Under the pieces are notes generated by a model. It was not told where the DNA came from and made no database searches. It saw only the letters and a list, made by a program, of their open reading frames with translations. This document shows positions 4,369-4,749 of a stretch of 33,167 nucleotides of DNA, one piece after another; position 1 is the first letter of the stretch, and each line of letters begins with the position of its first letter. The stretch covers positions 1 to 33,167 of the forward strand of contig JAHJHP010000092.1 in assembly GCA_018823705.1 (NCBI GenBank), given 5' to 3'. Source of the DNA: Candidatus Omnitrophota bacterium. Lineage in GTDB: Bacteria > Omnitrophota > Gorgyraeia > 2-01-FULL-45-10. Position numbers and translations under genes: made by a program.

Positions 4369-4445
4369 TTACCTTTCCACTTGCTCCGCCTTTTCTACGG
4401 CGGCGTTTACTTTCGAGGCCGCCTTCCGCTTGTCGCCACCAGCTA
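4369..4445 (-). pseudogene. Possible C-terminal gene remnant
   Basis: On the minus strand, reading from the inverted repeat to a TAA at 4369-4371, one frame gives a lysine/alanine-rich, helix-like peptide (AGGDKRKAASKVNAAVEKAE plus four residues, then stop). Its third positions look like the local coding style. The frame continues upstream through the inverted repeat but meets a stop in the loop, so it has no start. It may be the tail of a gene cut by the inverted-repeat element. It could also be chance. Confidence 0.3.
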
Positions 4446-4543
4446 TAGGGGACGTGTCACTTTGGGACACTCCACTTTTTGTGAATTATCTATAGCTACC
4501 AGTACTATTTAAAGTGGAGTGTCCCAAAGTGACACGTCCCCTA
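4446..4543. repeat. Perfect 33-bp inverted repeat (REP/MITE-like)
   Basis: The arms 4446-4478 and 4511-4543 are perfect reverse complements (33 of 33) around a 32-bp A/T-rich loop. Each arm begins TAGGGGACGTGTCACTTTGG and contains a smaller internal GTGTC/GACAC symmetry. The loop carries a second copy of the left-flank motif in reverse (AGCTATA at 4441-4447, TATAGCT at 4491-4497). The form suits a dispersed REP-like or non-autonomous mobile repeat. No transposase is nearby. Confidence 0.8.
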
Positions 4544-4655
4544 AATACTCATAACCATATGGCCCTTGCGCACCTACAGGTATACTGCGCGCTATGCCGA
4601 AAAAATTCAACCCGCTCGCTTCATGAAGCCACTTGTGCTTTATTTCAAGCGTCAT
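4509..4655 (-). other. Short open frame of uncertain status ending in the inverted repeat
   Basis: A 48-codon frame runs from ATG (4653-4655) to TAA (4509-4511). It encodes MTLEIKHKWLHEASGLNFFG, then a tail whose last residues are read from the right arm of the 33-bp inverted repeat. I recognise no family, and there is no good SD. It may be a coding remnant truncated by the repeat, or part of a larger repeat unit. From 4656 to 4749 I see nothing of note. Confidence 0.2.
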
Positions 4656-4749
4656 GGGGTAGAAGACCTAAGTGCGACATATATGAGCACATTGAAAATA
4701 TTAGGTCTCTTTGTGAAGCAGAAAAAGTGTGGAACCGAAAAATCTCCGC

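Follow-up and report, generated by a model that had tools for sequence, protein, structure and literature searches.

The perfect inverted repeat described here is, at a probability of roughly 90 %, a REPIN-like non-autonomous mobile palindrome that is mobilised in trans by a Y1 transposase encoded on another contig (C72) of the same genome. The repeat lies in the window, the whole 33,167-nt stretch of DNA that was analysed, which is contig C92 of an Omnitrophota genome (G000; 1,698,325 bases in 97 contigs). Data on copy number, the linkage between arm and enzyme, the predicted fold of that enzyme, the absence of a target duplication and a junction motif carry this reading, under which the window element, REPIN-like and non-autonomous, is assigned to the TIRtron/TIRYT type.

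The two arms are 33 nt long, 100 % complementary and separated by a 32-nt spacer (Table 1), and no T-run can be read on either side of the palindrome; on both points the sequence-only reading was accurate. Of the seven inverted pairs of at least 20 nt listed in the window, no other is perfect and no other has its arms closer than 1 kb. For the 98-nt strand, the folding energy as DNA is −39.9 kcal/mol (shuffle mean −8.8; z −14), and as RNA it is −64.2. A single left arm can also fold as a weak REP-type hairpin (GGA-C-GTGTC / GACAC-TCC). The outermost TA on each side more likely belongs to the flank than to the element, since the family sequence common to the copies starts at GGGGAC and the two bases before it vary: TA precedes GGGGAC in 29 of 52 flanks, and AA, AT, TT, CA or GA stands there in other copies. 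The element proper is then more likely 94 bp long. The window copy sits in an intergenic region of 0.4–0.5 kb, with some 207 nt between it and the nearest gene end that faces it (4750), and is probably a passenger there. A 146-codon ORF that starts inside its right arm has no Pfam match. On each side of the palindrome, the neighbouring stretch recurs as a dispersed repeat in relatives (Table 1).

Table 1. Positions of the palindrome and of associated features (window coordinates unless a contig, C, or locus, L, is named)
Feature	Position	Strand	Remarks
Left flank	4441..4447	+	AGCTATA; partial fit to junction motif GGnWWTA; outscores all 91 upstream control offsets
Left arm	4446..4478	+	GGGGAC.. 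from 4448; TA at 4446-4447 probably flank
Spacer of the 94-96-bp class	4479..4510	.	Varies among copies: interior 86 % identical, arms 99 %
Right arm	4511..4543	-	Inverted copy of left arm; CCCC ends at 4541; TA at 4542-4543 probably flank
Right flank	4542..4548	-	GTATTTA read towards the element; partial fit to GGnWWTA; rank fraction 0.011
Element proper, if TA is flank	4448..4541		More likely extent
Dispersed repeat in relatives	4391-4436		3 matches in G001, 1 in G002, 1 in G003, 3 in G013
Dispersed repeat in relatives	4663-4730		7 matches in G002, 1 in G001, 1 in G003
Diverged arm relatives	C50:824-883 (L083), C27:21687-21715, C69:12226, C90:12128		Including GGGGGCGTGTCA forms
Inverted repeat around third Y1 gene (C15)	L066 1670-1730 and 2278-2338		61 nt, 85 % complementarity
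Nesting sites, G000	C42:2343, C73:12000, C23:6540, C27:19952, C63:185		L080, L077, L041, L047, L076
Nesting sites, G000, further	C4, C16, C45, C23:39247, C23:53688		
Interrupted tRNA-like site	L179 1480-1570		G000 C51 near 2568-2605

The sequence alone had suggested a REP-like or MITE-like element whose spread depends on a transposase from another locus, a proposal that a single genomic copy would contradict; the arm proved to be present in many copies. The arm core GGGGACGTGTCAC has 77 matches in G000 (53 exact, 9 with one mismatch and 15 with two), compared with 14 in all for the reversed core at up to two mismatches, and the 15 two-mismatch matches may therefore be due to chance. A BLAST search with a 111-bp query returned nine near-full-length copies at 90–100 % identity in addition to many arm-only matches. 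A slightly looser pattern, applied to fetched stretches of the genome, marked 37 places, 25 of them paired and 12 of them distinct single arms, where ‘single’ means that no partner matching the pattern lies within 900 bp (13 rows, less one that was listed twice). The pairs measure 29 bp (four short perfect hairpins), 60 bp, 75 bp (three), 94–96 bp (nine), 115–242 bp (seven) and 747 bp. Many copies lie at contig ends, which makes some counts and flanks uncertain, and the same locus has probably been counted twice in places, for example C6/C40, C44/C63/C4 and C45/C91.

Arm identity among the nine copies of 94–96 bp is 99.2 %, compared with 86.3 % in the spacers. Better conservation of the arms is expected if only copies with intact ends move, or if the arms correct each other. 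Among the 21 elements longer than 55 bp, the arms match at 29/29 positions in 17, at 28/29 in one and at 16–21/29 in three, and the copy on C7 carries an identical base change in both arms. Fifteen of the 25 paired elements overlap no mechanical ORF of at least 90 residues. In the other ten, leaving aside C72, where the overlap is the transposase gene inside the element, ORFs span the whole element only in C16. Diverged relatives of the arm also occur and look like older copies.

PF01797 (Y1_Tnp) scores above its cut-off in three places of G000. On C72, the gene for a Y1 HUH-tyrosine transposase of 196 residues lies between two inverted 32-nt arms that match the window arm, and it is the sole inner ORF of at least 100 residues in this 747-bp element; an upstream ORF extends 41 nt into the element. 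An alignment of its sequence with 19 from relatives shows the HUH pair (H60, H62) and the tyrosine (Y120) unchanged in all 20. The AlphaFold model (pLDDT 90.9) has helices beyond residue 140, and a fold search of the PDB places it closest to 4er8, the structure of an E. coli REP-associated tyrosine transposase bound to a REP hairpin, at 19 % identity; the IS608, ISDra2 and IS200 transposases come next. At the level of sequence, phmmer against the PDB found nothing at E 0.01, the NCBIfam model REP_Tyr_transpos gave 74.3 bits, just under its cut-off of 80, and Pfam gave nothing besides Y1_Tnp, with no helix-turn-helix match. The two other Y1 genes, on C26 and C15, have different flanking inverted repeats. 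The pattern GGGGGACACRATAC, which represents the repeat of the C26 gene, is matched 21 times in the genome, and the long inverted repeat around the C15 gene is of different sequence again (Table 1). Related arms in 37 places and an arm-bracketed Y1 gene on another contig fit the proposed spread by a transposase encoded elsewhere, and it is very probable that the C72 enzyme moves palindromes of the window type.

A target duplication, which the sequence-only reading had suggested looking for, was sought at lengths of 2–9 bp; none of at least 4 bp was found (0/23 pairs), as is expected for a single-strand HUH mechanism. The two flanking bases are identical on both sides in 9 of 23 pairs, compared with a shuffle mean of 7.9. 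These counts weigh against the view that the element derives from a DDE-type insertion sequence as a MITE and duplicates its target when moved by cut-and-paste. Long terminal inverted repeats, a length of about 95 bp and dispersed copies would all suit such a MITE, and the frequent TA on both sides could be a 2-bp duplication. However, two-base sharing is no commoner than in shuffled pairs, longer duplications are lacking, and the gene between these arms, found by the PF01797 search, encodes a Y1 HUH enzyme, which makes a DDE-type origin very improbable.

The flanks carry a weak motif, GGnWWTA, on both sides. Across 57 flanks, being those distinct in their last 14 bases, the position before GGGG is A in 47 (−1), T is found at −2 in 36, A or T at −3 in 55, and G at both −6 and −7 in 31 each; positions −20 to −9 show little bias. 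Under leave-one-out scoring against 91 upstream offsets, 42 of 55 flanks have the junction among the top 5 %, and in 20 it outscores every offset. A test for left-right palindromy of the flanks in excess of composition was negative, thus this arm family does not as a rule insert into long palindromes. The syntenic region of the congener G003 keeps sequence on both sides and has no palindrome; an exact empty site for the window copy was not found there, the intergenic DNA of G003 being too diverged for the joint to be read.

REPs near stop codons have effects on translation. In 21 of 52 flanks an ORF of at least 100 codons ends from 26 nt before to 1 nt past the junction, a raw count over 40 nt on either side that has no random-intergenic background and uses mechanical ORFs, some of them near contig ends. 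In three flanks the first G of the element completes a stop codon begun by TA. The window copy does not sit at a gene end like these. Placement near stop codons, a very stable RNA hairpin and arms far better conserved than the spacer would suit a host element acting at the RNA level, as a transcription end, an RNase III site or a translational brake, that is kept for this role and whose mobility is history. Yet there is no T-run, a gap of about 207 nt separates the window copy from the nearest facing gene end, the element is absent from the syntenic locus in G003, and recognition by a transposase predicts arm conservation just as well. Rfam has no match at the palindrome, its only match in the window being a tRNA elsewhere, so that the structured-RNA site once offered as an alternative gains no support from it, and a retained RNA function is highly unlikely to explain the family. 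Least credible is an assembly artefact of the metagenome bin, in which graph ends would have multiplied or inverted the repeats. Ten or more contigs do have an arm no farther than about 350 nt from an end, the right flank on C62 is the exact reverse complement of the left, flanks are common to the contigs suspected of double counting and the right flanks of C13:16110 and C44:39494 share 18–19 nt, but the window copy and 15 other pairs lie more than 300 nt from contig ends, interiors differ among copies, and the better assembled G003 has a like family.

Counting its own, 48 of 97 genomes contain the transposase at an E value of 1e-30 or better, and a partial relative in Omnitrophica WOR_2 is 59 % identical over residues 128–196 (one contig scan). 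At 24 of 30 transposase loci (its own and 29 from relatives) the inverted repeat around the gene outscores all 100 base-order shuffles; the repeat contains GGGGAC in 14 of these, GGGGCC in 2 and GGGACG in 3. At L109 the scored part lies within a longer upstream arm starting GGGGACG. The repeats of L114, L119, L129 and L131 differ, and the best repeat of L114 is not the pair adjoining the gene. Six loci do not exceed their shuffles (L110, L113, L127, L128, L130 and L134), although short repeats of like appearance are present at L110, L113 and L130. G003, a genome of the same genus in about 10 contigs, has 16 matches (counting the query) to the arm of its own enzyme, and the pattern is therefore not confined to one fragmented assembly. 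Over 15 loci, six of whose repeats were read by eye, repeat similarity correlates weakly with transposase similarity (r 0.20, p 0.06).

A separate observation concerns the 60 nt upstream of the transposase start (L108–L116, L119, L120 and L122), where a hairpin pairs the Shine-Dalgarno sequence with an upstream CCTC-like stretch. It was seen by eye in 12 of 15 loci folded, and three of five consensus pairs have changes on both sides. RNAalifold on the 5′ UTR alignment gave only five consensus pairs at −1.2 kcal/mol, probably because loop lengths differ. The transposase message of IS200 is held shut, and by analogy the message here may be held shut by the Shine-Dalgarno hairpin.

Other palindromes are nested with the window family. 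P3 (CCTGCCTGCCTG...), a second palindrome, sits within this family's arms in C42 and C73, and leaving it out restores the arm at 30/30 and 29/30 positions, respectively, a clearer empty-site comparison than the G003 locus allows. A second palindrome family (CCTGCCTGCCTGC...GCAGGCAGGCAGG), with 45 exact arm matches when overlapping registers are counted and 2 for the control with one mismatch allowed, sits inside the window family's arms as well as in the hairpin loop of a third palindrome (GTAGCCCGGGCT/TAAGCCCGGGCTAC), which is uninterrupted elsewhere. The ends of the second family are not shown by any of the three Y1 genes. At three mismatches the third-palindrome pattern is not above its reversed control (74 vs 64), and its evidence is limited to 5 exact and 8 one-mismatch matches. 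Additionally, what looks by eye like the 5′ half of a tRNA gene is split by the second palindrome, with GGATA on one side and GAGC on the other; ARAGORN called no tRNA at this site.

Hairpin recognition, single-strand transfer and movement in trans are steps that we infer by analogy with IS608 and the RAYTs. Once single-stranded, as may happen on the lagging strand, the arms would fold, and a transposase dimer would recognise the hairpins and cut at the foot of each. The cut piece would be rejoined elsewhere without a target duplication, with GGnWWTA-like junctions preferred, and copies would survive mostly where little harm is done, near gene ends or between genes. A broader and tentative proposal, which we consider somewhat doubtful, is that tyrosine transposases with GGGGAC-type ends form a widespread Omnitrophota system. 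Each genome would have its own palindrome populations, single-stranded hairpins would insert at a defined junction with GGnWWTA on either side, frequently a short way behind stop codons, and families would repeatedly nest in each other's hairpin loops.

With the IS200/IS605 elements (IS608, ISDra2) the system shares a Y1 HUH core and the lack of a target duplication of at least 4 bp. It differs from them in the tyrosine motif of the C72 enzyme, which is Y...NP and not Y...Q, in having one transposase copy with this arm compared with many non-autonomous copies, and in that the transposase gene is the only ORF of at least 100 residues in the 747-bp element. The likeness to the RAYTs (Nunvar 2010, PMC2817692), or TnpA-REP, lies in the predicted fold of the C72 transposase, the same as that of 4er8. 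Members of TnpA-Y1 subclass 2.1 are described as having the motifs NHVH or NH[YF]H, W[EQ] or FQ, and YIELNP or Y[IV]HLNP, a C-terminal extension of helix-turn-helix type and a median length of 238, and no REP-like sequences were found beside 2.1 genes (Quentin 2018, PMC6006769). NHFH and FQ in the C72 transposase fit this description and YIERNP is one residue off YIELNP, whereas its 196 residues and an arm beside the gene that can fold as a weak REP-like hairpin depart from it. As to the C-terminal extension, Pfam shows no helix-turn-helix match, and the model has helices after residue 140.

REPINs are inverted doublets that form one long hairpin with conserved arms, a looser spacer and compensatory changes; they are extragenic and have a cognate tyrosine transposase, and 101 GI doublets were aligned in their description (Bertels and Rainey 2011, PMC3116915). 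Likewise, the present family consists of two inverted short repeats and a spacer that fold as one hairpin, is dispersed, multicopy and mostly extragenic (25 paired places), and has a cognate RAYT flanked by the same repeat, the C72 gene with its 32-nt arms. Its arms, however, are perfectly paired, its copies are fewer (nine in the main class vs those 101 doublets), and the GT[AG]G foot is absent, the arm starting TAGGGG in the window and GGGG generally; the window element is therefore not a classical GTAG REP. A search of a limited set of papers for RAYTs in Omnitrophota and for transposases together with miniature inverted repeats in Omnitrophica found nothing, which is no proof of absence.

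In TIRtrons/TIRYTs a RAYT-like gene lies between long terminal inverted repeats (TIRs) and not GTAG REPs; some TIRs share GGGGWSAS, and some form moderately abundant dispersed families, many as dimers (Di Nocera 2013, PMC3733652). The same source reports REPs less than 20 bp from gene 3′ ends, GTAG REPs that supply a TAG stop, and, for GTAG and CGTC REPs, dimers inside other palindromes in three species. On C72, too, a RAYT-like gene lies between long TIRs unrelated to GTAG REPs. Placement near stop codons, with a TAG stop completed by the element in three flanks, is a further likeness, and the nesting of palindromes has its precedent in the REP dimers. The start of the repeat (GGGGACGT) fits GGGGWSAS in part, at 6 of 8 positions. 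The differences are the host, here Omnitrophota, and the junction motif GGnWWTA, for which the passages used here give no counterpart in TIR elements. In its working the window element resembles a REPIN, and in anatomy it is a TIRtron-derived repeat. The type of element is already known and the main novelty is the host group: a little-studied phylum without cultured members gains a REPIN/TIRtron system for which there is a clear candidate enzyme. The junction motif and the uninterrupted within-genome copies offer material for asking where such transposases insert.
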